From Aneurinibacillus terranovensis DSM 18919 (GTDB taxonomy: Bacteria; Bacillota; Bacilli; Aneurinibacillales; Aneurinibacillaceae), in NCBI RefSeq assembly GCF_000430625.1, contig NZ_AUMJ01000015.1, positions 62,001 through 126,000 of the forward strand: a stretch of 64,000 nt of DNA, given 5' to 3'. This document shows positions 20,526-48,280 of this stretch, in pieces. The notes under the pieces are model-generated. The model worked only from the letters and a program-made list of their open reading frames with translations, did not search any database and was not told where the DNA came from. Within the stretch, counting starts at the first letter, position 1, and each line of letters starts with the position of its first letter. Position numbers and translations under genes: made by a program.

Positions 20526-21074
20526 GTGGATAAACTAACTGAGGTATTAAAATACCAGAGGCATGATTTGCTAAATCATATGCAAGTGCTGCTCGGTTAT
20601 TTAAAGCTTAAAAAGTATCCGATGTGCGAAGAATACATTTATCGTTTGATTGACCAAATGACCCGGGAATCCATTATTTCAGGCTTAGACTGCCCTGCAC
20701 TGGTTGAACATTTGCTGTCTTTTAACGCAATCCACCCTGATGTTGAGCTTGAAGTAGAAATACCGGAGCCGTTTAGTTTGCATCAAGTGACAAGCCGCAC
20801 TGACTTTCTGGGTGAGTTTATCCTGTCGTTTATCAAGCCGTATGAACAATATTCGTTCTGTAATAATGGAGAACCTAACACGCTTTTACTCACCCTTCAC
20901 TACATAAGGGGAAGTTTGCGCATCGTGGTCGACTTTAACGGGCGGCTGGATGCCGGAAGAGCTCAAATCGAGCTGGACGAGCTGCGCCAAAGAGCGGAAA
21001 AGGAAGGCGCGATGTTTACAGTGGAAATCCATACGGAAGAAGAATCGGTTATCGAATGTATTTTTCCTTTCTAG
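20526..21074 (+). CDS. spo0B: Sporulation phosphotransferase Spo0B
   Basis: 182 residues. The N-terminal helical hairpin carries the phospho-accepting His in YQRHDLLNHMQVLLGYLKL (His13), followed by a degenerate kinase-like alpha/beta domain that lacks ATP-binding boxes. Spo0B passes phosphate from Spo0F to Spo0A in the phosphorelay that starts sporulation. The neighbour obg is the same as in B. subtilis. GTG 20526 is the likely start, with AAAGGGG about 12 bases upstream. The protein is poorly conserved between genera, so context carries much of the call. Confidence 0.85.
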   Translation: MDKLTEVLKYQRHDLLNHMQVLLGYLKLKKYPMCEEYIYRLIDQMTRESIISGLDCPALVEHLLSFNAIHPDVELEVEIPEPFSLHQVTSRTDFLGEFILSFIKPYEQYSFCNNGEPNTLLLTLHYIRGSLRIVVDFNGRLDAGRAQIELDELRQRAEKEGAMFTVEIHTEEESVIECIFPF

Positions 21075-35993: not shown

Positions 35994-36054
35994 AGAAACC
36001 GTTTGAGAACATTGCATATTTGTAGAGGAAGGCTGTGGCTAGTAGGTTTGACCT

Positions 36055-36348
36055 GGTGACAGCTATTTTCCATGGAGATAAGAAAATTACTTTGCAAGAA
36101 AAATATGGATTTCATTCCTTTATCGTGCTAATGTTATGATGTTAAGTTCCAGTCTTTCATCAGCGATGAAGGAAGAATCGCACAGGGAAAGTGTTCTTAT
36201 CACACTTCTTGTTACGATATCCTGCGTTTCTATCGCTGGAATTGGATCCGCATTCTGTGGATTAATTGCGGGTATGGTAGCAAACTATATTCTTGTCGGA
36301 GACGTGAAAAATTTTTTCAGAAAAGAAGGTGCTGTACAAGAAAAATAA
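36055..36348 (+). pseudogene. Probable C-terminal remnant of a BenE-type symporter
   Basis: A frame of about 70 residues from ATG 36136 (open further upstream) contains HRESVLITLLVTISCVSI and AGIGSAFCGLIAGMVANYIL. This resembles the last two membrane segments of benzoate/H+ symporters, which end in VTASG..LFGIGSAFWGLVAG-like sequence in a protein of about 390 residues. No ribosome site precedes it, and the rest of the gene is absent. I read it as a fragment; a genuine small membrane protein is the alternative. Confidence 0.4.
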
Positions 36349-36352
36349 AAGA

Positions 36353-36382
36353 TTGACACGGTTTATTCTATCTTTTATATTA
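36353..36382 (+). promoter_or_regulatory. Promoter of the rbs operon
   Basis: TTGACA (36353-36358), 18-base spacer, TATATT (36377-36382). The predicted transcription start falls on the first operator. Confidence 0.7.
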
Positions 36383-36388
36383 AATGGT

Positions 36389-36402
36389 GTAATCGGTTAC
36401 CT
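36389..36402 (+). promoter_or_regulatory. LacI-family operator 1 (rbs)
   Basis: TGTAATCGGTTACC, a near-palindrome with a central CG, at the predicted +1 of the rbs promoter. Likely RbsR site, with possible CcpA recognition. Confidence 0.75.
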
Positions 36403-36432
36403 ATTAGTTTCAAGGTATTTTTTTAAATAGCG

Positions 36433-36446
36433 TGTAACCGATTACC
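36433..36446 (+). promoter_or_regulatory. LacI-family operator 2 (rbs)
   Basis: TGTAACCGATTACC, 44 bases centre-to-centre from operator 1, in the untranslated leader. Confidence 0.75.
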
Positions 36447-36463
36447 TATTTTTTTGCGCTTAC

Positions 36464-36477
36464 TGTAACCGGTTACA
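36464..36477 (+). promoter_or_regulatory. LacI-family operator 3 (rbs)
   Basis: TGTAACCGGTTACA, a perfect palindrome, 31 bases from operator 2. It also fits the CcpA cre consensus TGWAANCGNTNWCA. Confidence 0.78.
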
Positions 36478-36544
36478 CACCGGAGGGATGTGAGAATTCA
36501 CAAGGTTAGTTGAACGGCAAATTTAATGCGAGAGGTAGAATACT

Positions 36545-37534
36545 ATGGCTAATATTAGAGATGTTTCAAAATTAGCCGGTGTTTCTGTTGCCACTGTATC
36601 CCGTGTTCTCAATCAGAATGGGTATGTTCATCCTGATACGGAACAAAAGGTTTTAAAGGCGATAAATGAGTTAAACTACATCCCTAATTTTGTGGCCAGG
36701 AGTTTATCCAATAAAAAAACAAAAACAATCGGGCTTATTGTTCCGGATATTACGAACCCGTTCTTCCCGGAACTGGCAAGAGCCGTGGAAGATGTTATGA
36801 AGATATACGGCTATACGGTTATTCTTTGTAATTCAGACGAAGATGAAGAGAAGGAAAAGCACTATTTTCAAATATTAAAACAGAAATATATTGATGGACT
36901 TATCTTAGCTACTGCGTCGATGCCTATTTCAGATATGCAGGCATTTGACGTTCCGATTGTAGTCATTGACCGTATTGTCAGTCAGGGCATTCCGACGGTC
37001 GTTGCTAAAAATAAAGAGGGGGCCCGGCTCGCCACGAGACTTTTGCTCAAGCAGGGATGCAAGAAAGTCGCACATTTACGAGGACCCGAATCTGTTATCA
37101 ACGCCAGAGAGCGATGTGAAGGGTATGTAGACGTTGTCCGGGAAAAGGAATGGTTTCATCCGAATTTAATTATTCAGGGGAATTATGAAATCAAAAAGGC
37201 CTTTCATGAGACAATGAAGCTATTAACAGAACAGCCGGACGTGGACGGAATTTTTGCTGGGAATGACTTGATGGCTATCGGTGCGATGAAAGCGGCTCAG
37301 CAGCTAAAAATTCGAATCCCTGACGAACTTGCCATAATCGGATTCGACGGGATAACCCTGGGTGAAATGATTTTTCCGGAGCTGTCAACCGTTGCGCAGC
37401 CGATTTATGATATGGGCGCAATCGGAGCCAGAATGCTCATTAAATTAATAGAAAATAGTCCGGTCGATAAACTGTATCAACAATTGGATGTTCAATTCAT
37501 CGAACGCGGCACAACAAGAAAGGTGTGTGATTAG
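36545..37534 (+). CDS. rbsR: Ribose operon repressor RbsR (LacI family)
   Basis: 329 residues. N-terminal LacI helix-turn-helix (IRDVSKLAGVSVATVSRVLN) with hinge helix (NFVARSLSNKK), then a periplasmic-binding-like sugar domain (IGLIVPDITNPFFPELARAVE; DGIFAGNDLMAIGAMKAA). As the first gene of the operon it should autoregulate through the three upstream operators, with ribose or ribose phosphate as inducer. ATG 36545 follows GAGAGGTAG. Confidence 0.92.
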   Translation: MANIRDVSKLAGVSVATVSRVLNQNGYVHPDTEQKVLKAINELNYIPNFVARSLSNKKTKTIGLIVPDITNPFFPELARAVEDVMKIYGYTVILCNSDEDEEKEKHYFQILKQKYIDGLILATASMPISDMQAFDVPIVVIDRIVSQGIPTVVAKNKEGARLATRLLLKQGCKKVAHLRGPESVINARERCEGYVDVVREKEWFHPNLIIQGNYEIKKAFHETMKLLTEQPDVDGIFAGNDLMAIGAMKAAQQLKIRIPDELAIIGFDGITLGEMIFPELSTVAQPIYDMGAIGARMLIKLIENSPVDKLYQQLDVQFIERGTTRKVCD

Positions 37535-37535
37535 G

Positions 37536-38462
37536 ATGGGCCGTCCTAAAATAACGGTGATTGGAAGCATAAATATGGATCTGGTCGTTAAAACGGACCG
37601 GGTGCCAAAGATGGGAGAAACGGTGCTCGGAAGCCAATTTTTAACGACCCCTGGCGGCAAGGGAGCCAATCAGGCGGTCGCCTGTGCCAGGTTAGGAGCG
37701 GATGTCACCATGGTTGGCTGCGTCGGCGACGATGTTTTCGGCAGGCAGCTGGTAGAGAATTTGCGCAAAGAGAATATTTCTACGGAAAATGTGGAACCGG
37801 TTACATTTCTTTCTACAGGGATTGCCTGTATTACCGTACAGGATGGGGACAACTCGATCATCGTTGTACCAGGAGCTAATTATGCGATTGATGAAGAGAA
37901 AATACAACAAGTGGAGCACTTGATCAAGGAATCGAATTTATTACTGCTGCAATTGGAAATTCCGCTGAAGAGTGTGGAACTGGCGGTTGACATCGCCCAT
38001 AAATATCAGGTTCCGGTTATCGTAAATCCGGCTCCCGCGGCTGAACTTCCTAGCAGCATGCTGGAAAAAATAACGGTGGTAACCCCAAATGAATATGAAT
38101 TGGAAACGATTGCGGGGCAGAAATTTGAGCAGCCCGACGATTTCAAAAAGGCGATTCAATCGTATGCCGGACAATTAGTGATGACGAAAGGAAAAGAAGG
38201 GGCGTATTATACCGCGGCGGATGGCGGGATCGGCTATTGCCCGGGCTATCGTGTCGAGGCGGTCGATACGACAGGGGCGGGAGATTCATTCAATGCCGGG
38301 CTAGCTGTCATGCTGGCCGAGGGAAAATCACTTTCTGAAGCCACAAAATATGCGGCAGCAGTAGGAGCGCTTTCCGTTACCAGGCTCGGAGCCCAGAGCG
38401 GAATGCCGACAAGACATGAAGTAGAGCAGTTTCTTCAGGAAAGGGAGGGCAGAGAATTATGA
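37536..38462 (+). CDS. rbsK: Ribokinase
   Basis: 308-residue PfkB-family kinase that makes ribose 5-phosphate. N-terminal GSINMDLVVKTDRVPKMGET, GGKGANQAVACARLGA, and the C-terminal catalytic signature VDTTGAGDSFNAG with the general-base Asp. ATG 37536 comes one base after the rbsR stop. Its end overlaps rbsD as ATGA. Confidence 0.96.
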   Translation: MGRPKITVIGSINMDLVVKTDRVPKMGETVLGSQFLTTPGGKGANQAVACARLGADVTMVGCVGDDVFGRQLVENLRKENISTENVEPVTFLSTGIACITVQDGDNSIIVVPGANYAIDEEKIQQVEHLIKESNLLLLQLEIPLKSVELAVDIAHKYQVPVIVNPAPAAELPSSMLEKITVVTPNEYELETIAGQKFEQPDDFKKAIQSYAGQLVMTKGKEGAYYTAADGGIGYCPGYRVEAVDTTGAGDSFNAGLAVMLAEGKSLSEATKYAAAVGALSVTRLGAQSGMPTRHEVEQFLQEREGREL

Positions 38463-38854
38463 AAAAAATTGGAACGTTAAACAGTGACATTTCAGCGGTA
38501 CTTTCAAAACTCGGGCACACGGACACCATCGTGATCGCTGATTGCGGCCTCCCGGTTCCGGACGGTGTGCAAAGAATTGACCTCGCGTTAAAACGAGGCA
38601 CTCCCGGTTTAATTGAAACGCTTGAAACGGTTTTATCGGAAATGGAAGTGGAGAAATACGTACTTGCGAACGAAATCCGGGAGAAAAATCCTGAGATGAA
38701 AAAAAAGATAGTGGAATTGATGCCCGGAGTGGAATGTGCGTATCTCTCGCACGAGGATTTTAAGAAAGCAACCGCACAGGCAAAAGCTATCATCCGAACA
38801 GGGGAAGACACGCCCTACGCCAATGTGATTTTGCAGTCGGGGGTTATTTTCTAG
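38459..38854 (+). CDS. rbsD: D-ribose pyranase
   Basis: 131 residues. MKKIGTLNSDISAVLSKLGHTD with the catalytic His (His20 region), IADCGLPVP, and C-terminal GEDTPYANVILQSGV are diagnostic. It interconverts beta-pyranose and beta-furanose ribose so RbsK can act. Overlaps rbsK by 4 bases. Confidence 0.95.
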   Translation: MKKIGTLNSDISAVLSKLGHTDTIVIADCGLPVPDGVQRIDLALKRGTPGLIETLETVLSEMEVEKYVLANEIREKNPEMKKKIVELMPGVECAYLSHEDFKKATAQAKAIIRTGEDTPYANVILQSGVIF

Positions 38855-38941
38855 GCAGATAAGAAAGTACACCTTTCTTATCCCCCGGGTGCAGCTAAGG
38901 TAATCGCCAATTACCTATACCTGCGGCCTGGTGCTGGTCTG
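38855..38941 (+). repeat. Structured repeat element, copy B, inside the rbs operon
   Basis: Begins at the rbsD stop: GATAAGAAAG/CTTTCTTATC hairpin (38858-38882), GTGCAGCTAAGG (38889-38900), AGGTAAT/ATTACCT hairpin around CGCCA (38898-38915), and CGGCCTGG (38924-38931). Same order and near-identical spacing as copy A at 35.04 kb. It fills the 114-base gap between rbsD and rbsA, the widest in the operon. Confidence 0.7.
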
Positions 38942-38968
38942 CGTCTACTATATGGAAGGTGGTGTTTC

Positions 38969-40474
38969 GTGGTGAATGATCTGATCGAGATGAAGAACAT
39001 AAGCAAATCGTTTTCCAATGTAAAAGTGCTTGAAAACGTTTCTTTTTCTCTAAAGGAAGGGGAAGTCCATGCCCTGATGGGTGAAAACGGGGCAGGAAAA
39101 TCAACCTTAATAAAAATCCTCACGGGAATTTACACAGCGGATACGGGATCGATTTACGTCAATGGCCAGGAAGTCAAATTTTCAGGGCCTAAAGATGCGG
39201 AAAAGATGGGAATATCGGTTATCCACCAGGAGTTAAACATTATTCCCCAGTTATCGGTTGCCGAAAATATGTTTTTAGGACGTGACCTTTGTTATGGTAA
39301 GTCCGGCATATTACGAACGTCAGAAATGAAGAAGAAAACGAGAGAGTATCTCGAAAAGCTCGGCATAAGCATTAACCCGGATGAAATCGCGGAGAATCTG
39401 TCAGTAGGACAGCAGCAAATGGTGGAAATTGCCCGGGCGATTTCACTGGATACGAGAGTTCTCATCATGGACGAACCGACCGCCGCGCTGACAGACAGAG
39501 AGATTGAAACCCTTTTTAATGTGATGAATGACTTACGAAGGCAGGGAGTCGGCATTATCTATATTTCACACCGTATGGAAGAAATCTTTGCGATCTGCGA
39601 TAGAATTTCCGTACTGCGGGATGGCCATTTTATCGGAACCGAAAATATTGATGAAACCAATCTGGAGGCGATTGTTCAAATGATGGTTGGTCGCCAAATC
39701 GGCGGCCGCTTTCCGGAGCGCTCTCATGGTATCGGGGAAGAGAGCCTGCGTGTCGAGAACCTGAGCAATGGAAAGTTCCTTAAAAATATTTCTTTTTCAG
39801 CACGACGCGGTGAAATTTTAGGAATTGCGGGTCTGATGGGTTCGGGAAGGACGGAGCTCGTCCGAACATTATTCGGCGCTGACAAGAAAGCGAGCGGAAA
39901 AGTGTTCTTGTTTGGCAAAGAGATACACATTAGAAAACCTGAACAGGCCATTGCAGCGGGAATTGCATTTGTAACGGAAGACAGGAAACAGGAAGGGTTG
40001 GTGCTTGACCTGTCTGTCCGGGAGAATATTTCCATTCCTAACCTTGCTGCCATTTCAAAAAGCGGCGTTGTTTCTGAGCGATTAGAGCGGGAATTAACCG
40101 GAGACATGATTAAGAAATTAAATATTAAAACGAAAGACGCTGAACAGATCGTTAAGTCGTTAAGCGGGGGAAACCAGCAAAAAGTTGTCATTGGCAAATG
40201 GCTGGGCATTAAACCTAAAATTCTCATCCTCGATGAACCAACGCGCGGCGTCGATATCGGCGCAAAAAAAGAGATTTACAACATAATGAACCAGCTTACC
40301 GCCGAAGGAGTCACAATCCTGATGATTTCATCGGAGCTGCCGGAAATACTGGGTATGAGTGACCGGATCATCGTCATGCATGAAGGGAAAATTACTGCCA
40401 TTATGAACAAAGAAGAAGCGACTCAGGAATCTATTATGTATGCCGCTACTGGGGGAGAAAAAAATGATAGATAG
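38969..40474 (+). CDS. rbsA: Ribose ABC transporter ATP-binding protein RbsA
   Basis: 501 residues with two fused nucleotide-binding domains. The first has Walker [10 protein letters not shown], signature [10 protein letters not shown] and Walker [12 protein letters not shown]. The second has the degenerate Walker [11 protein letters not shown] normal for this family, signature LSGGNQQKV and Walker [12 protein letters not shown]. It energises ribose uptake through RbsC. GTG 38969 follows GGAAGGTGG with 6-base spacing. Confidence 0.96.
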
Positions 40475-41405
40475 AAGAGCACTTACTATCAATCTGCAAA
40501 AACTGGGATCACTGATTGGGCTTATTTTATTGGTTATCGTCCTGGCAATTATGAGTCCCGATTTTTTTACATGGAATAATATCTTTAATGTATTGCGCCA
40601 GATATCCATCAATGCTCTTATTGCCTTCGGTATGACATTCGTTATTTTGACAGGTGGGATCGATTTATCGGTTGGAGCCATCCTGGCGCTGTCAGGGGCT
40701 ATCACAGCAAACTACCTGGTAGCCGGCCTAAACCCTGTCGCAGCGATTCTGCTGGGACTTTTAGCCGGAACCATCATGGGGGCTATTAACGGATTGTTGA
40801 TCACGAAAGGAAAAATTGCTCCGTTCATTGCCACGCTTGCAACGATGACTCTTTTTCGGGGCATCACGTTAGTTTATACGGGCGGCCGTCCGATTACTGA
40901 TTTTACCAGTGATTTGTTTACGATGATTGGCGGCGGTTACGTATCCTATATACCTGTTCCTGTAATTTGGATGCTCGCCATTTTTGCGGTTCTCTATTTT
41001 GTTTTAAGAAAAATGTCTTTTGGACGACGTGTCTATGCAATAGGTGGGAATGAAGAAGCTTCTATTCTCTCCGGAATCAAAGTGGACAGGGTAAAAATTG
41101 CTATTTATTCCTTAACCGGCCTTCTCTCCGCTTTTGCGGGAATCATTCTTACCTCTCGCTTAAATTCAGCGGAAGCCAATGCCGGTACAGGATTCGAGCT
41201 TGATGCGATCGCTTCGGTCGTACTCGGAGGGACCAGCCTGTCAGGAGGAAAAGGGTGGATTTTCGGAACGCTTATCGGTGCCATGATCATCGGTGTGCTA
41301 AACAATGGACTGAATTTGCTTGAAGTTTCTTCTTTTTACCAGCAAGTTGTGAAAGGCATTGTTATTTTATTAGCTGTCTTACTCGACCGTAAGAAAGCTA
41401 ATTAA
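40464..41405 (+). CDS. rbsC: Ribose ABC transporter permease RbsC
   Basis: 313-residue polytopic permease of the carbohydrate uptake 2 family. Hallmarks: [23 protein letters not shown] in the early spans, [14 protein letters not shown] (EAA-like loop), and [24 protein letters not shown] 40464 lies inside the rbsA end (11-base overlap) with GGGGGAG upstream. Confidence 0.95.
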
Positions 41406-41436
41406 AATATAAAAATGTAAAAGGGGTGCTATTCAA

Positions 41437-42369
41437 ATGAATAAATTTATTAAAGGGGTTTCCGCAAGTTTAGTCGGCCTGTCGCTTTTAGCCGGTTGTT
41501 CAACCCAGGCTCCAGGAACGAACAGCTCGTCACCGGCGCCGGCAAAAGACCACCAGATTACAGTGGGCCTTGCGCTATCGACAGAAAACAACCCGTTTTT
41601 CGTCTCGCTAAAAGACGGGGCTGAAAAGGCAGCAAATGAAAATCATATGAAACTAATCACCGTTGATGCTCAGGATGACCCGGCGAAGCAAACGTCCGGA
41701 ATTGAAGATTTAATTCAGAAAAAGGTGGATGTGCTCCTCGTCAATCCTACCGACTCTTCAGCGATTAAAACGGCGATTCAATCGGCGAATCAGGCCAATA
41801 TTCCGGTCATTACGGTTGACCGAACAGCGGATGGCGGCAAAGTGGTGTCCCACGTGGCTTCCAATAATATAGAGGGCGGTCAGATGGCCGCGAAATACAT
41901 TCTGAATAAATTGGGGAACAAAGGCAACATTGTGGAACTGCAGGGAATCCCTGGTTCTTCCGCTGCGCGTGAACGCGGCAAAGGGTTCCATGAAATGGTT
42001 GACAAAGCAGCGGGTGTGAAAGTGGTTGCCTCGCAGCCGGCTGATTTTGACCGCGCGAAGGGTCTTACCGTAATGGAAAATATTCTGCAAAGCAACAAGA
42101 ATGTGAACGCAGTGTTTGCCCAGAATGACGAAATGGCTCTCGGGGCGATCAAGGCCATTCAAGCCGCAGGTTTAAAAAATGTGGTTATCGTCGGCTTCGA
42201 TGGAACCGCGGACGGGGTTAAAGCAGTGAAAGAGGGAAAAATGAGCGCCACGATTGCCCAGCAGCCTGAACTCATTGGAAAATACGCGATTGATGCAGCC
42301 AGTAAAGTCGTAAAAGGTGAATCAGTTGACAAAACCATCCCGGTTCAACTGCAGTTAATTGAGAAGTAA
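41437..42369 (+). CDS. rbsB: Ribose-binding lipoprotein RbsB
   Basis: 310 residues. Lipoprotein signal peptide with lipobox LLAGC (Cys21), then a type 1 periplasmic-binding fold: VGLALSTENNPFFVSLKDGA, DDPAKQTSGIEDLI, FDRAKGLTVMENIL, FAQNDEMALGAIKAI, VGFDGTADG. Anchored outside the membrane, it delivers ribose to RbsC/RbsA. Last gene of the operon. Confidence 0.95.
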   Translation: MNKFIKGVSASLVGLSLLAGCSTQAPGTNSSSPAPAKDHQITVGLALSTENNPFFVSLKDGAEKAANENHMKLITVDAQDDPAKQTSGIEDLIQKKVDVLLVNPTDSSAIKTAIQSANQANIPVITVDRTADGGKVVSHVASNNIEGGQMAAKYILNKLGNKGNIVELQGIPGSSAARERGKGFHEMVDKAAGVKVVASQPADFDRAKGLTVMENILQSNKNVNAVFAQNDEMALGAIKAIQAAGLKNVVIVGFDGTADGVKAVKEGKMSATIAQQPELIGKYAIDAASKVVKGESVDKTIPVQLQLIEK

Positions 42370-42400
42370 TTTGTAGTAATCAGAAGTAAGGCAAATAAAT

Positions 42401-42450
42401 TCTATAGAACAACAGCAGGCTGGATTGACAGCCTGCTGTTGTTCTATAGA
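42401..42450. repeat. Perfect 22-bp inverted repeat after rbsB
   Basis: Bases 42401-42422 are exactly complementary to 42429-42450, with a 6-base loop GATTGA. No T-tract follows. It may terminate or stabilise the rbs mRNA 3' end, or be an element end. Confidence 0.8.
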
Positions 42451-42722
42451 TGACCGGGTCTACGATCAGTTTATGATCATCGGATTTGAGTCATTCGATA
42501 GTTATTCTTCATTAAGTTATTACAATAATGCAGCGGGATTCTTAAATGAGTATGTTCCCGTTTCAGTGATAATTTAAGACTAACCTTCTTGAGGTATATA
42601 TAAAGTATTAAAAGTTCACAATTTATTAAGATATTTCAAAAAAAATAATAGAAAATTGGTATATTTTGTTTTATTGTATTTACATGTATTAACAAAATGT
42701 TATTTTTAAGGAGGGACTCGAA
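42451..42722 (+). other. Gene-poor AT-rich stretch
   Basis: From here the base composition becomes clearly more AT-rich. A frame of about 34 codons from ATG 42473 (MIIGFESFDSYSSLSYYNN...) lacks a ribosome site and is not recognised. The last 60 bases are T/A-rich with a strong GGAGGGA ribosome site before the next gene. Confidence 0.5.
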
Positions 42723-44038
42723 TTGAAAACTGTCAAAAAAGTAATTGTGATTCCATTTACTCTTGCGTCTTTGTTGTCACCAACCATATCCTTAGCCTCT
42801 GAAAATATACAGGTACCGCAGGTAGGTGCAACAGCGGAGCCCACAGGTGTGAGTACAACAAAAGATTCTATTCTAATTGAAAAAAATTCAGTTAATCCAG
42901 AAACGATTGAAGCAGCTTCGCAGACATTACCGAGCACTCAAGACTCTATTATTATTGATTCAAATGCTGTTATAAAAGTAGCAAACGACTACATTAAAAA
43001 CGTGGTTTCTAAGTATTTGTATACCAATTGGGTAGGAGCTACAGTAGAAAACCCTGTCCCTTTTTACTCTATATTGATGGCAATCAAATCGTCTATCAAT
43101 TAAAGGTTTATCAAGGATCAAAAGAAATAGGTTATATTATTGCTGGTGCAACTCAAGATGTTAGCCCTATTATTACAGTGGGTGCGGGTAAAGCACCAAC
43201 AGATAATATAGATATGATAAAAGAAATGGCAAAGAAAAAAGTCGGCAGCGATAAGCACATTGACGGTATTAAGTATTTGTATGGGGGTCCCATGAATTTA
43301 GGAGTTCAAATTGACATTCTGGACAAAGGGAAAGTGATTGGGAAGTCCATTTATCATCTTCAAGGCCAATTTGAAATGGACCAATTTTCCGACTTGAAAA
43401 TAAGTGTAGAAAACAAAAAGAAAGCAAAAGAAAAATGGGCTGGATTTCTTGAATCAAAAATTACCAAACCTCAAAGTGTTATCAGCCCCATGGATGTTTA
43501 TACTAATAAAGATTTGAGCGTAAGATCATATAATCAGGCATATTCTCAAAATAATAATACCGGATGCGGACCGGCCGCAGCAGCAAATATATTAAACTAT
43601 TGGGATGAAAGAGGGTATACTAATCTTCAAAGTGACAATGATCGTACAAATGGAATCAATCTAATGAATCACATGTTTGGTGATTTACAAACTTCTATTA
43701 TTGGTACTGATCCAAGCGCGTGGGCACAGGGTATGAAAACCCATGCTAACTCACATAGCGGTTATCGCTTTACAACGCAAAATTATACCTATGACGCTTC
43801 CTTAGGTAGTACGTTTTGGGGGTATATGGTAAATCAAATTAATGCTGGTCACCCATTTGGTATGTTTTTTCCTCTTAATTCTAAACCATATAGCTGGCAT
43901 ATCGTAACGTGTAGAGGTTACTATCAAAGTTCTACAGGTTCCAAATCTTATCACGTAAACACGTGGGGTAGTGATGCTTGGCAGGATTATGATAGCATTG
44001 GTAATCATACGTTGATGTTTGTTATTCCTGGAAGTTAA
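42723..44038 (+). pseudogene. Secreted C39-like peptidase gene with a frameshift
   Basis: One gene appears split by a single-base change. The first frame (42723-43103) starts TTG after GGAGGGA and gives a signal peptide (KKVIVIPFTLASLLSPTISLAS), then an unrecognised domain as far as ENPVPFYS near 43070. The sequence continues naturally one frame back as LYIDGNQIVYQLKVYQ to the stop at 44038. The C-terminal domain is C39-like papain fold: Cys in NNNTGCGPAAAANILNYW, His in YSWHIVTCRGYY, and VNTWGSDAW. No standard slippery heptamer is visible, so inactivation or a sequence error is likely. AT-rich, unlike the backbone. Confidence 0.75.
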
Positions 44039-44054
44039 ATGAAAGGTAACTAGA

Positions 44055-44093
44055 AGTAAAACCACTCGAAAGAAAAAGAGTGGTTTTACTTTA
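44055..44093 (+). terminator. Terminator after the C39-like gene
   Basis: AGTAAAACCACTC (44055-44067) pairs perfectly with GAGTGGTTTTACT (44078-44090), followed by T-rich sequence. Works in both directions. Confidence 0.85.
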
Positions 44094-44159
44094 TAATTAA
44101 ATGGTAAATCCTTCAGCTTAATCATATCCTAGTATTATCAAATCTTTTCAGGGGGAAAT

Positions 44160-44720
44160 ATGAGCGATATTATTTTATTGGTTTCATTTCTTCTCTTTTT
44201 GCTTGCGATAATGGCTACTGTTTGGTTATACAAGCTGCATTTCGCGAACGGTAATGTATATGAACTTGAAAATTATCTATTGCTGTTTCTATTTGCGTTC
44301 CACGGCTATGGATTCTATATGGTTTATAAATTTTTGACATTCCCCCCGGATATGAATCCGGGAAACGGCAATCCGGGTCTGATTGTGATGATTCCATTAG
44401 CGATATTGTTTCTTCTTTATCATGTCCTTTTTGTCTTAAAAGGAATAAGATATTTTCGTTTCCACAGTTATCGGTTTACACTATACGTATTTTTCCTCTC
44501 TTTGCTATCAACTTTATCGTTCCTTTACTTAGAAACAAGTTTTTCAAAAAGAGTTATAAAATTAGTACCGGATACAGAAGGTACTAATCAATGGTTCAAC
44601 TGGTGGATGGACGTTCATAAGAATAGCCTTTATTTTAATGGATATGCTTTTATGTTGAGCATAAGTGTCTCAATATTTTTAGCCTCATTTATCTCAATCA
44701 TAGTTAAGGGAAAATCTTAG
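44160..44720 (+). CDS. Unknown four-span membrane protein
   Basis: 186 residues, not recognised. About four or five hydrophobic segments: residues 4-24, 40-60, 75-96 and 105-125, and one at the C-terminus (LSISVSIFLASFISIIV). A Pro/Gly/Asn-rich loop (FPPDMNPGNGNPG) lies after the second. ATG 44160 follows GGGGGA. AT-rich like the preceding gene. A 31-base fragment nearly identical to codons around GYGFYMVYKFLT recurs at 45142-45172. Confidence 0.7.
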   Translation: MSDIILLVSFLLFLLAIMATVWLYKLHFANGNVYELENYLLLFLFAFHGYGFYMVYKFLTFPPDMNPGNGNPGLIVMIPLAILFLLYHVLFVLKGIRYFRFHSYRFTLYVFFLSLLSTLSFLYLETSFSKRVIKLVPDTEGTNQWFNWWMDVHKNSLYFNGYAFMLSISVSIFLASFISIIVKGKS

Positions 44721-44827
44721 TGACTCAACTCTTGCAGTTAGCTTATTATTATCCATTGTAGAAAAGCGGATTCTCAAACGGTCTGCTGGGAGCTAACGAC
44801 AAAAATAAAGAAATCTACCGTGGTTTT

Positions 44828-44836
44828 TGCTACAAT
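44828..44836 (+). promoter_or_regulatory. Extended -10 element before the coiled-coil gene
   Basis: TGCTACAAT, an extended -10 (TGn-TACAAT), 33 bases before the start at 44870. No clear -35. Confidence 0.4.
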
Positions 44837-44869
44837 GATAGCAATAGGATGATACGGGGGGATTCGCGG

Positions 44870-45100
44870 ATGGATACGAATAAGTTAATGCAGCTTTTAC
44901 TCGAAAAAGTGGTTAGCATGGAGAGTAGTTTTACCGAGATAAAAGCTGAAATACGAGACCTCAGAGATGACGTAAAAACTTGTATGAAGGATATTTATGA
45001 AACGAAAAAGGACGTTCAGGATTTGACAAAGGCGCTGCGCTTCTATGATGCCAAAATAGGCGAACATGACCGCGAAATCTTTCAAATTAAGAACAACTAA
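44870..45100 (+). CDS. Small coiled-coil protein
   Basis: 76 residues, almost wholly helical and charged, with heptad patterns (EIKAEIRDLRDDVKTCMKDI; TKKDVQDLTKALRFYDAK). No membrane segment. Such short coiled-coil proteins are common and uncharacterised in Bacillales. ATG 44870 is correctly spaced from GGGGGGA; the upstream ATG at 44849 is not. Function unknown. Confidence 0.65.
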   Translation: MDTNKLMQLLLEKVVSMESSFTEIKAEIRDLRDDVKTCMKDIYETKKDVQDLTKALRFYDAKIGEHDREIFQIKNN

Positions 45101-45141
45101 GTTTCTCGAGTTTGTTTCATCGTCAATCGGTAGCAATTATA

Positions 45142-45172
45142 TATGGATTCTATATGGTTTATAAATTTTGAC
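45142..45172 (+). repeat. Partial duplicate of the 44.3-kb membrane gene
   Basis: 31 bases match 44307-44338 with a single one-base length difference in a T-run. There is no open frame around this copy, so it is a fragment, perhaps left by loss of a tandem paralogue. Confidence 0.7.
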
Positions 45173-45203
45173 GTTTTCTAGGGCCGATAGCAGCCTAAAA
45201 AAG

Positions 45204-45245
45204 GAGTAACCCCTTATGGCTTGTAGAATAGCAAAGGGGTTACTC
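45204..45245 (-). terminator. Terminator of the XRE repressor gene
   Basis: GAGTAACCCCTT (45204-45215) pairs with AAGGGGTTACTC (45234-45245), overlapping the stop of the minus-strand gene. On the minus strand the stem is followed by CTTTTTT. Confidence 0.85.
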
Positions 45246-45599
45246 TTCTTTTTGTTCCTGTTTTAGTTTTTTTAGCATTTCGATTGTATTGCGGACCTGT
45301 TCTTTGACTAACTCCTGTTCTCTTGGGGAAAGGTCCTGATAGCCCTCGTAGAAGGCGATGTTTATCGACGGATCCTTTAAAATTTCAGGCACGGAGGAAG
45401 CTTCACTTGTCCGGCCCAGCAGATAATCCGTAGAAACATTGAAAAAATCAGCAAACTTTTGAAGTGTTGTAAAATCCGGCTGCCTTTTATTTATTTCATA
45501 ATGTGCGTACGTTCCACGTGAAATATTGAGGATTTTAGCTACTTCTTCTTGTGTTAATTTCATTTTCTGACGAAGTTCTTTTAACTTGTCGCCTAACAC
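45240..45599 (-). CDS. XRE-family repressor
   Basis: 119 residues. N-terminal helix-turn-helix of the Cro/C1/SinR type (LKELRQKMKLTQEEVAKILNISRGTYAHYE; residues about 6-60) and a C-terminal acidic/helical tail (LSPREQELVKEQVRNTIEMLKKLKQ) likely for oligomerisation. GTG start at 45599 after GGGG. Its probable promoter (-10 TATAAT at 45635-45630 on the minus strand) has a 17-bp palindromic operator in the spacer, pointing to autorepression. It is divergent from the HTH-kinase gene and probably controls it. Confidence 0.88.
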   Translation of the reverse strand: MLGDKLKELRQKMKLTQEEVAKILNISRGTYAHYEINKRQPDFTTLQKFADFFNVSTDYLLGRTSEASSVPEILKDPSINIAFYEGYQDLSPREQELVKEQVRNTIEMLKKLKQEQKEE

Positions 45600-45636
45600 A
45601 GCAACCCCATCCTTATCTCGTATGGGTTAATTATAC

Positions 45637-45653
45637 TGTAGCAGTGAGCTACA
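45637..45653. promoter_or_regulatory. 17-bp operator 1 (XRE promoter)
   Basis: TGTAGCAGTGAGCTACA, perfect arms TGTAGC/GCTACA around 5 bases, directly upstream of the -10 of the XRE gene, in its -35/-10 spacer. Confidence 0.75.
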
Positions 45654-45663
45654 TAAGAATAAT

Positions 45664-45680
45664 TGTAGCGATAAGATACA
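45664..45680. promoter_or_regulatory. 17-bp operator 2 (upstream of kinase -35)
   Basis: TGTAGCGATAAGATACA, arms TGTAgC/GaTACA with one mismatch, six bases upstream of the -35 of the kinase promoter. Confidence 0.6.
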
Positions 45681-45686
45681 TGATGA

Positions 45687-45715
45687 TTGACATATTATTC
45701 TATTTAAGATAATAT
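45687..45715 (+). promoter_or_regulatory. Promoter of the HTH-kinase gene
   Basis: Consensus TTGACA (45687-45692), 17-base spacer, TAATAT (45710-45715). Flanked by operators 2 and 3. Confidence 0.78.
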
Positions 45716-45725
45716 TAGGCTTAAA

Positions 45726-45742
45726 AGTAGCGCAACGCTACA
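45726..45742. promoter_or_regulatory. 17-bp operator 3 (downstream of kinase +1)
   Basis: AGTAGCGCAACGCTACA, arms GTAGCG/CGCTAC, just downstream of the expected start of kinase transcription. Confidence 0.72.
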
Positions 45743-45759
45743 TCAAAGGGGGCGATGGG

Positions 45760-46686
45760 ATGGCTCCAAGGAGATGGCTGGTTAAAATGAGAGAAGGTAA
45801 AAGATATACACAGGAACAGGTTGCTGCATTTTCAAACATAAAAAGAGCGTATTATACCCAGATCGAAAATGGAAAAAGAACGCCAAGCGTAGACGTAGCC
45901 CGGCGGATCGCAAAAACGCTGGACTTTAACTGGAATTTTTTATTCGAAGAGACGGAGAAATATGGGGAGATAAGTGGAGAAGAGAGGGGAGCAGAAGCGG
46001 AAGCATTATTCCTGGTCGGGAGGGTGGCAGCCCGCTTTGCCCATGAAGTCCGGAATCCGCTCATGACGGTTCGCGGCTACCTCCAGTATCTTTCAGGGCA
46101 GGTCGGACCGGATATCGCTCATATTTTCGAAACCATCCTCATTCCTGAACTGGACAGCGTCAATCGCGTAATCAGTGACTTTTTGCTTGTTTCAACGCCT
46201 ATTTTACTCAAAAAAGAGCGTGTGTTTATGAACGCTTTACTCAGAGAATTTTACAAGACTATTTCCCATCAATTATCTGCTCATCAAATACAAACCATCT
46301 TAGACTTGTCCCCGGAGTTAGATACGGTTGCCATAGAGGTAGACCCGGAACGGTTTCTCAGAGTTCTCCTGGCCCTTTTTACGAATTCCGTGGAAGCAAA
46401 AGAGCGCGCGGATATGAACATCACAATAAAATCAGCCCTCAAGGGGGAACAGATTCAAATTATTTTTAAAGATAATGGAAAGGGAATGCCGCCTTCCTTG
46501 CTTGCGCACACATCAGACCTCTTTTTTACAACCAAACCTTTGGATATAGGGCTCGGGCTTTCTATCGCGCAAAAAATCGTTAAGATGCATGGCGGATTTA
46601 TCCAAATTGAAAGCAACTGTTACCTCGGAACGATCGTGACGATTACGCTTCCTCTCCTTTGTCCTTCGCATGAATCTATCATTTAA
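45760..46686 (+). CDS. Soluble XRE-HTH / sporulation-type histidine kinase fusion
   Basis: 308 residues, no membrane segment. Residues about 8-63 are an XRE helix-turn-helix (MREGKRYTQEQVAAFSNIKR ... YYTQIENGKRTPSV). Residues about 83-148 are a HisKA domain with phospho-His95 in FAHEVRNPLMTVRGYLQYL; this and ELDSVNRVISDFLLVSTP resemble the dimerisation helices of KinA-type sporulation kinases. The ATPase domain keeps the N box (Asn209, FTNSVEA), DNGKGM (238-243), and GLGLSIA (264-270). No response regulator gene is adjacent, as for orphan phosphorelay kinases. Inference: a DNA-binding or ligand-sensing HTH tunes a kinase feeding Spo0F/Spo0B/Spo0A. ATG 45760 follows AAGGGGGCG. Confidence 0.85.
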   Translation: MAPRRWLVKMREGKRYTQEQVAAFSNIKRAYYTQIENGKRTPSVDVARRIAKTLDFNWNFLFEETEKYGEISGEERGAEAEALFLVGRVAARFAHEVRNPLMTVRGYLQYLSGQVGPDIAHIFETILIPELDSVNRVISDFLLVSTPILLKKERVFMNALLREFYKTISHQLSAHQIQTILDLSPELDTVAIEVDPERFLRVLLALFTNSVEAKERADMNITIKSALKGEQIQIIFKDNGKGMPPSLLAHTSDLFFTTKPLDIGLGLSIAQKIVKMHGGFIQIESNCYLGTIVTITLPLLCPSHESII

Positions 46687-46709
46687 TTTGAGAATTTTCA
46701 CATTACAAA

Positions 46710-46723
46710 CGAATGAACGTTCG
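46710..46723. promoter_or_regulatory. LexA-box-like palindrome upstream of the SpoIID-like gene
   Basis: CGAATGAACGTTCG matches the Bacillus LexA consensus CGAACRNRYGTTCG at 13 of 14 positions. It lies 163 bases before the SpoIID-like start and 24 bases after the kinase gene stop. Confidence 0.5.
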
Positions 46724-46885
46724 AAAACATCTGGATATATCTTTAGTAGCAGAGAAAAATAAATATATATAGCAACCTTCCTCCTGTTTTTCCGTATATA
46801 TTATTATTGTTGGAAAATAGTAGATAGATTTCTGGTAGAATGTACATAACGTAATGTTGATTACAAAGGAGAAGGGGATGCACGG

Positions 46886-48280
46886 ATGAAAGCCGCACGA
46901 ATTTTTGGGGGCCTCCTAAGTGTTTGTTTGATTTTTCCGTTTGCTAGTTTTGCACACGCCGAAGAGCAGCAGGTAAAGGTTGAGATTACGTCACCTTTTA
47001 GCACCGATGCAGGAACTCTGTCCAGTATTAATTTTTCGGTAACAGAGGATTATTTGGCCGAAGGTACGCCAATTGCTGCCGGTCAGAAATATGTCGTCTC
47101 TCTTGAGAGCGGAGTGCTAAACTTATACCAGATTAATGGCGATAGCCTGAATCCTATCATACAGGGTAAGACTTCTATTGTGCTGACACCAGCAAACAGC
47201 GCTGTTGATGACAATATGGTAGAATTGGATGGCGATAAATCTTCCAATAAATACAGGGAGAGTATGGAATTCAGGCTGGGTGTGAAAAACGGCCAATCCT
47301 GTATCATTCCGATTAACGAGCTTAGCGTGGATAACTATTTAAAAGGTGTTGTTCCTATGGAAATGAGCGATTCATGGGAAATGGAAGCGTTAAAAGCACA
47401 GGCGGTAGCCGCGCGTACGTATGTAATGAAATCCATGCAATCATTGAATGCGAACGGCTACATTAACGATACGGTTAAATACCAGGCTTATCGAGGCGTA
47501 AATATAGAGGGCGACAATGCGACTCAGGCCGTGGAAGGCACCAAGGGTGAAGTGCTTACGTATAATGGCCAGTTAATTTCAGCCCTTTACAGTTCGAGCG
47601 ACGGCGGTTATACGGAGTCTTCGGAAAACGTGTGGAGTGGAGGGGCTTATCCCTATCTGACAGAGAAGCCGGATCCCTATGATGCTAAAATATCACCGCA
47701 TATTGGATGGCAGGAAACGTACACGATTGGTGATATTGAAAAAAAACTGGCGGCTGCCGGCATGGGGGTAGGAACTGTTAAGAGCATTCAGCTTGCAGCG
47801 GTATATCCTTCTCACCGGATTGCGGATTTAGTTATTCAGGGGGATAAAGGCACCCAGCATCTATCAAAAGAAAGAGCCCGCACGGTTCTCGGCCTGAAAA
47901 GCGCGATGTATACCATAAAACTTAATACCACAGGAAATGCAGCTTCAAACCCGGATCCGAACAGCACGGTTACTGTACTCGGTCAGACTGCCGAGAAGAA
48001 AAACCTGCTTGGTTTGTCTGTTCAAACGGCAACAGGTGTGAAACCGGTAGCTCCGGGAAAAACTGTTATTCAAGGGGCAACCGGACAAGCTTCCTTGTCC
48101 GGCCAGCAGGCGTCAGCAGGCACGATTGCCTCTGTCACCTTCACAGGGAACGGATGGGGGCACGGTGTTGGGATGAGCCAATGGGGTGCGAGGGAAATGG
48201 CCAAGGAAGGAAAAACCTTTGCGGAAATTCTGGATTTTTATTACCAAGGGGCAGTGTTGACGCAGAATGACGGAAATTAG
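46886..48280 (+). CDS. SpoIID/LytB-domain lytic protein
   Basis: 464 residues. Sec signal peptide ending FAHA/EE, an N-terminal beta-rich region, then the SpoIID/LytB domain: LSVDNYLKGVVPMEMSDSW, ALKAQAVAARTYVMK, SDGGYTESSENVW, and the C-terminal NGWGHGVGMSQWGAREMAKEG. SpoIID is a lytic transglycosylase acting on septal peptidoglycan during engulfment. This paralogue sits before queA-tgt in several Bacillales rather than at the classical spoIID locus, so I give no symbol. A Ser/Thr/Gln-rich insert (about 350-415) splits the domain. ATG 46886 follows AAAGGAGAAGGGG. Confidence 0.88.
   Translation: MKAARIFGGLLSVCLIFPFASFAHAEEQQVKVEITSPFSTDAGTLSSINFSVTEDYLAEGTPIAAGQKYVVSLESGVLNLYQINGDSLNPIIQGKTSIVLTPANSAVDDNMVELDGDKSSNKYRESMEFRLGVKNGQSCIIPINELSVDNYLKGVVPMEMSDSWEMEALKAQAVAARTYVMKSMQSLNANGYINDTVKYQAYRGVNIEGDNATQAVEGTKGEVLTYNGQLISALYSSSDGGYTESSENVWSGGAYPYLTEKPDPYDAKISPHIGWQETYTIGDIEKKLAAAGMGVGTVKSIQLAAVYPSHRIADLVIQGDKGTQHLSKERARTVLGLKSAMYTIKLNTTGNAASNPDPNSTVTVLGQTAEKKNLLGLSVQTATGVKPVAPGKTVIQGATGQASLSGQQASAGTIASVTFTGNGWGHGVGMSQWGAREMAKEGKTFAEILDFYYQGAVLTQNDGN

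Follow-up and report, generated by a model that had tools for sequence, protein, structure and literature searches.

A domesticated phage-type CI/Cro switch as the likely control of an orphan sensor-less histidine kinase in Aneurinibacillaceae, with cro fused to the kinase gene in Aneurinibacillus terranovensis

A 64,000-nucleotide stretch of the A. terranovensis DSM 18919 genome (hereafter, the window) encodes a divergent gene pair that we interpret, with fairly good confidence, as a domesticated switch of the temperate-phage CI/Cro type controlling an orphan, sensor-less cytoplasmic histidine kinase, the cro gene being joined, in this genome, in one reading frame with the kinase gene downstream of it. 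The anatomy of the pair, its operators, the fused and separate gene arrangements, the phage Cro position of the DNA-binding part, its covariation with the operators and the orphan status of the kinase are all read directly from sequence comparisons; the order of operator occupancy, the lock-in of the on state, the activity of the kinase and the destination of its phosphate are what we infer. If true, this would be a phage decision circuit operating outside a phage and driving a sporulation-type kinase, and it would show plainly how a bistable switch can be reused as an input to host cell fate.

An ORF check placed the two genes exactly at 45240-45599 (minus strand) and 45760-46686 (plus strand), head-to-head with a 160-bp promoter region between them. 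The former has a GTG start and encodes an XRE repressor of 119 aa (Pfam HTH_3, 2e-18), the CI-like partner in the switch, which is related by sequence to an ICEBs1 Xre-family regulator of solved structure (7t8i). The latter encodes a 308-aa fusion composed of an HTH_3 domain (about residues 1-66), a linker, HisKA and HATPase_c, with Pfam matches at residues 9-56 (HTH_3, 4e-13), 87-145 (HisKA, 4e-7) and 195-299 (HATPase_c, 1e-17). Its Cro-like part (45760-45957, plus strand) carries the recognition helix KRAYYTQIENG (with Q34), and the sensor-less HisKA+HATPase_c part (45994-46686, plus strand) is assigned by homology to the kinase-only genes of relatives. The catalytic motifs (H, N, G1, F and G2) are intact: H95 in HEVRNP, N209, DNGKGM at 238, FFTTK at 255 and GLGLS at 264. 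The protein has no membrane segment, as judged from a peak 19-residue hydropathy of 1.3, and a Pfam search found no PAS domain in it. An earlier note on this DNA had described a soluble XRE HTH joined to a complete HisKA plus ATPase core without a PAS sensor, and these matches, motifs and hydropathy values bear that description out. A separate kinase product translated from an internal start was considered and rejected: by eye, the linker holds a purine-rich stretch, but no well-spaced in-frame start follows it. No report of an XRE/Cro-histidine kinase fusion was found in the open-access literature searched.

Three GTAGC-N5-GCTAC operators lie in the intergenic region, two perfect and one with a single mismatch, in agreement with the earlier claim of a head-to-head XRE repressor with shared operators. 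These are O1 (GTAGCAGTGAGCTAC, 45638-45652, perfect), O2 (GTAGCGATAAGATAC, 45665-45679, one mismatch) and O3 (GTAGCGCAACGCTAC, 45727-45741, perfect), the last lying immediately 3' of the kinase -10 box. According to a whole-genome motif scan, both perfect copies are located here and zero elsewhere in the 4.25-Mb genome, and sites with at most two mismatches number three in the region compared with about 0.06 expected from shuffling. A putative -10 box of the repressor promoter, TATAAT (45630-45635, minus strand), read from the sequence and accompanied by a weak -35, adjoins O1; the sequence ATTATACTGTAGC at this box is conserved in most relatives. A sigma-A-type promoter, TTGACA-17-TAATAT (45687-45715, plus strand; 10 of 12 matches), is predicted to lead into the HTH-kinase gene, the count of sigma-A-type matches in the region being no higher than in shuffles. 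Multiple shared palindromic operators overlapping both predicted promoters are what a phage-type CI/Cro switch displays, and the HTH-bearing relatives share this operator layout, as does a Cro/repressor pair of Halobacillus (L014).

The identity of the HTH as a Cro-like protein is indicated by its stand-alone homologues, which are the Cro-position genes facing the repressor in Caldibacillus phage CBP1, Latilactobacillus phage TMW 1.2272 P1 and Enterococcus phage EG-TP1; the HTH homologue in the Halobacillus pair faces its repressor likewise. Such homologues take the Cro position of phage and prophage switches, an XRE repressor standing head-to-head with the homologue at 66 of the 78 loci examined. 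The module itself is not in a phage or prophage: there are no phage genes around it, and host genes flank both sides. No relatives were found among viral contigs, and no M78 (ImmA) protease gene lies beside the module, those of this genome being on contigs C47 and C50 only. A second Cro/repressor pair, with GTTTC half-sites, is present in the window genome (L163, contig C50, 3860-5136), and an M78 protease gene is found near it (C50:3365-3703). PADLOC matches (capH, HTH_VI and RmrA) span the generic XRE domain only, and a defence function was therefore not adopted.

The recognition helix of this HTH type and the operators change together. Half-sites were derived from a w-N5-rc(w) motif search in each intergenic region (the loci include L094-L118, L123-L125 and L158-L201), and HTH residue 34 (window numbering) was compared with half-site base 4, giving a z of about 12 over 46 non-redundant loci, a statistic that ignores kinship. 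Q is paired with G in 7/7 cases and M with A in 14/14, while N is found mostly with GTTCC, H with GTTAC and E with GACGC or GACTC half-sites; the overall helix/operator association was reached in 0 of 1000 permutations. Every locus with GTAGC half-sites combines Q34 in the HTH with [ST]RGTYAHYE in the repressor. In fact, the recognition helix of the repressor covaries with the operators too, as expected if both proteins share operators, and for this reason the operators alone are no proof of binding by the kinase HTH. One more joint change is provided by an HTH-less relative (G009), where the repressor reads SRGAYTHYE and the third operator GTATC-N5-GATAC. The covariation lends support to the earlier suggestion of a DNA target common to the repressor and the kinase HTH, and the HTH in the fusion has probably kept the ability to bind its own operators, acting there as a tethered Cro. 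The relation observed over the 46 loci also amounts to a testable rule for predicting the operators of this Cro family.

The module was compared over 11 Aneurinibacillaceae genomes, the window genome included. The kinase is present in six others (G001, whose contig matches A. aneurinilyticus L006; G002, whose contig matches A. danicus L007; G003; G005; G006; and G009), and in 6/6 it is faced by a divergent repressor with 65-77% identity to the one in the window. In G001, G002, G003 and G005, the HTH is encoded by an ORF of its own, which lies between repressor and kinase and ends in a stop codon. No HTH was found in G006 and G009, where repressor and kinase remain and the kinase is the first such gene past the promoter. 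By eye, the cro place between promoter and kinase in G006 (L034) is taken by a short ORF, about 28 codons long and without relation to the HTH. The HTH-less G006 still has part of the operators, so that some of these can be maintained by a repressor on its own. The Cro-kinase fusion was seen in one genome only; no other fusion of this HTH/kinase type was found in 399 Bacilli genomes among the best 5 candidates per genome, and among the genomes searched the module did not occur outside one family. We regard the fusion as derived because phage Cro proteins and PAS-type kinases, serving as outgroups, are separate proteins; the kinase and repressor trees do not resolve the order of the window genome, G006 and G009.

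This distribution bears on what the earlier note had proposed. Its reading of the fusion as a signalling design could not be upheld in the sense of a conserved one, and homologues that lack the HTH and are otherwise alike, which it had named beforehand as speaking against that reading, exist in G006 and G009. Along the lines of the search that it suggested, a divergent repressor and the operator layout co-occur in the HTH-bearing relatives, and a second fusion did not emerge from the best 5 candidates per genome in the 399 Bacilli genomes. The series of HTH absent, separate and fused is a natural one, offering a direct test of the contribution of a DNA-binding part to kinase signalling.

The switch that we propose would operate as follows. 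In the off state, the repressor would sit on O1-O3 and so keep its own promoter in check, while at O3 it would shut off the promoter of the kinase. Upon loss or inactivation of the repressor, the kinase promoter would fire, and the Cro-like domain carried by the kinase would bind the same operators, thus holding down the repressor gene and limiting its own synthesis. The kinase core would autophosphorylate at H95 and hand the phosphate on; the most plausible recipient, among receivers encoded at other places in the genome, is Spo0F.

A more direct coupling, put forward in the earlier note, in which the activity of the kinase responds to its HTH binding the operators or the repressor and the state of the switch itself becomes the input to the phosphorelay, appears unlikely to us. 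It would be in keeping with the location of the HTH, which stands N-terminal to the DHp helix, where a sensor domain would be, with its good conservation and the intact operators, and with a predicted structure in which a long helix (76-112) runs into the DHp. The same model, however, interposes a low-confidence stretch (residues 56-77, pLDDT <50) between the HTH and this signalling helix; overall, the kinase core is modelled well and the HTH poorly from an alignment without HTH rows, and little weight is therefore given to the prediction. What counts further against such coupling is that the fusion was seen in one genome only and that the HTH of the relatives is separate or absent, so that DNA occupancy as a kinase input is not required. 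We give little credence to the fuller version of the idea, a DNA-binding histidine kinase that its Cro domain would seat on its own operators. Autophosphorylation would then depend on whether these operators are occupied or the CI-type repressor is contacted, and a bistable phage-type switch would be read directly as phosphate flow into the sporulation phosphorelay.

At the other extreme, the fusion may be neutral or decaying, two genes having been joined and the HTH left as a mere N-terminal tail. The lack of an HTH in G006 and G009 and the restriction of the fusion to one genome could be reconciled with this. It is nevertheless quite improbable in view of the conservation of the fused part: the HTH retains 69-70% identity to the stand-alone HTHs of the relatives, as compared with 42-45% between the fused kinase part and their kinase-only genes, which argues against a decaying tail. 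Moreover, the recognition helix (KRAYYTQIENG in the fusion) is unchanged over RAYYTQIENG between fused and separate versions, and two of the operators are perfect palindromes. We retain the domesticated CI/Cro-type switch as the preferred reading.

As for the output of this switch, the core of the kinase has its nearest matches in PAS-HisKA kinases of about 400-420 aa and in the AtoS/ZraS/KinD models, and not specifically in KinA, the type named in the earlier note. The closest cores outside the family belong to PAS-HisKA-HATPase_c kinases of Bacilli (L053-L064), with 36-42% identity over the core. Among other candidates for relatives, long matches on plasmids were discarded (of four opened, three were larger proteins, two of these beside response regulators, and one was unannotated), as were PHROGs phage kinases, where the match is restricted to the catalytic core. 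The genome contains 35 receiver-domain matches, none of them inside the window, which agrees with the earlier remark that a partner response regulator is missing; such orphan status is a common mark of verified sporulation kinases (PMC6136694). Spo0F is encoded in the genome (73% identity to B. subtilis Spo0F). A Spo0B-type protein (SPOB_a, PF14689) is encoded in the same window as the kinase, at 20526-21074 on the plus strand. Since Spo0F and Spo0B are present and no response regulator is nearby, Spo0F is a plausible target of the phosphate, and the most plausible one.

It is possible, albeit doubtful, that the kinase feeds a response regulator other than Spo0F and has no role in sporulation, an alternative that concerns the output only and is compatible with the switch as proposed. 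Besides the 35 receiver-domain matches to choose from, the specificity hexad points in this direction. In the six-residue scheme, KinA has TAGFQL and most Desulfotomaculum candidates have TTGFQL/M/F (PMC6136694); the window kinase reads MTGYQY, differing from KinA at 4 of 6 positions and from TxGFQ[LI] by F to Y, L to Y and first T to M, with G and Q kept. On the other hand, no receiver is adjacent, Spo0F and Spo0B are both at hand, and the nearest kinases outside the family, the PAS kinases, read TTGYQ[FL] or TTGFQV, close to the phosphorelay-kinase hexads of the same study (PMC6136694).

The genomic site of the module differs between the window genome and its relatives. In all six relatives it sits between glcF and dagK, genes that are adjacent and module-free in the window genome, G004 and G007. 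Conversely, an LplA-like gene lies directly 5' of a SpoIID-like gene in the relatives, and about 10.9 kb separate the two in the window. Relative to all relatives, the insert covers 36000-46886, between the LplA-like (35166) and SpoIID-like (46886) genes, and contains a LacI-type regulator and a ribose operon, followed by genes for a C39-like peptidase and a membrane protein, a small coiled ORF and the module. A single gene for a secreted C39-like peptidase, split by a frameshift, may underlie two ORFs that overlap, 42723-43103 and 43028-44038. The location in an accessory insert, as originally described, is therefore correct, and the suggestion of a mobile device is not sustained: the module is found, among the genomes searched, in one family and at one conserved site in six relatives, no integrase was seen among its neighbours, and comparison of the two junction regions for flanking repeats gave matches of 9-11 bases only. 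Within the family, the module is an accessory feature; it is differently placed here and shows no sign of present mobility.

Among known systems, the orphan sporulation kinases KinA-KinE share with the window kinase the HisKA+HATPase_c core, the absence of an adjacent receiver and the presence of Spo0F/Spo0B in the genome. The window kinase differs from them by an HTH in place of a PAS or membrane sensor and by MTGYQY in place of TxGFQ[LI]. The PAS-HisKA-HATPase_c kinases L053-L064, unlike the window kinase, have a long N-terminal sensor-type region and neither an HTH nor a switch. A regulatory parallel is offered by the mobile element ICEBs1, where ImmR represses a promoter (Pxis-devI) from which a gene affecting the Spo0A pathway is expressed (PMC8032392). 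Common to both would be an XRE repressor in control of a promoter whose cargo acts on the host sporulation pathway, the Spo0F link of our module being a proposed one. ICEBs1, however, is mobile and carries ImmA and RapI/PhrI, and DevI is a small development inhibitor rather than a kinase; our module is not an ICE and has no adjoining ImmA. The CI/Cro lysogeny switch of Gram-positive temperate phages (CBP1, EG-TP1) has the same divergent XRE repressor and small HTH in the Cro position, with palindromic operators between them, and its HTH is homologous to that of the fusion (50-53% identity). In contrast to these phages, the module described here has no phage genes around it, and the gene under its predicted Cro-side promoter encodes a histidine kinase, to which Cro itself is fused in A. 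terranovensis.
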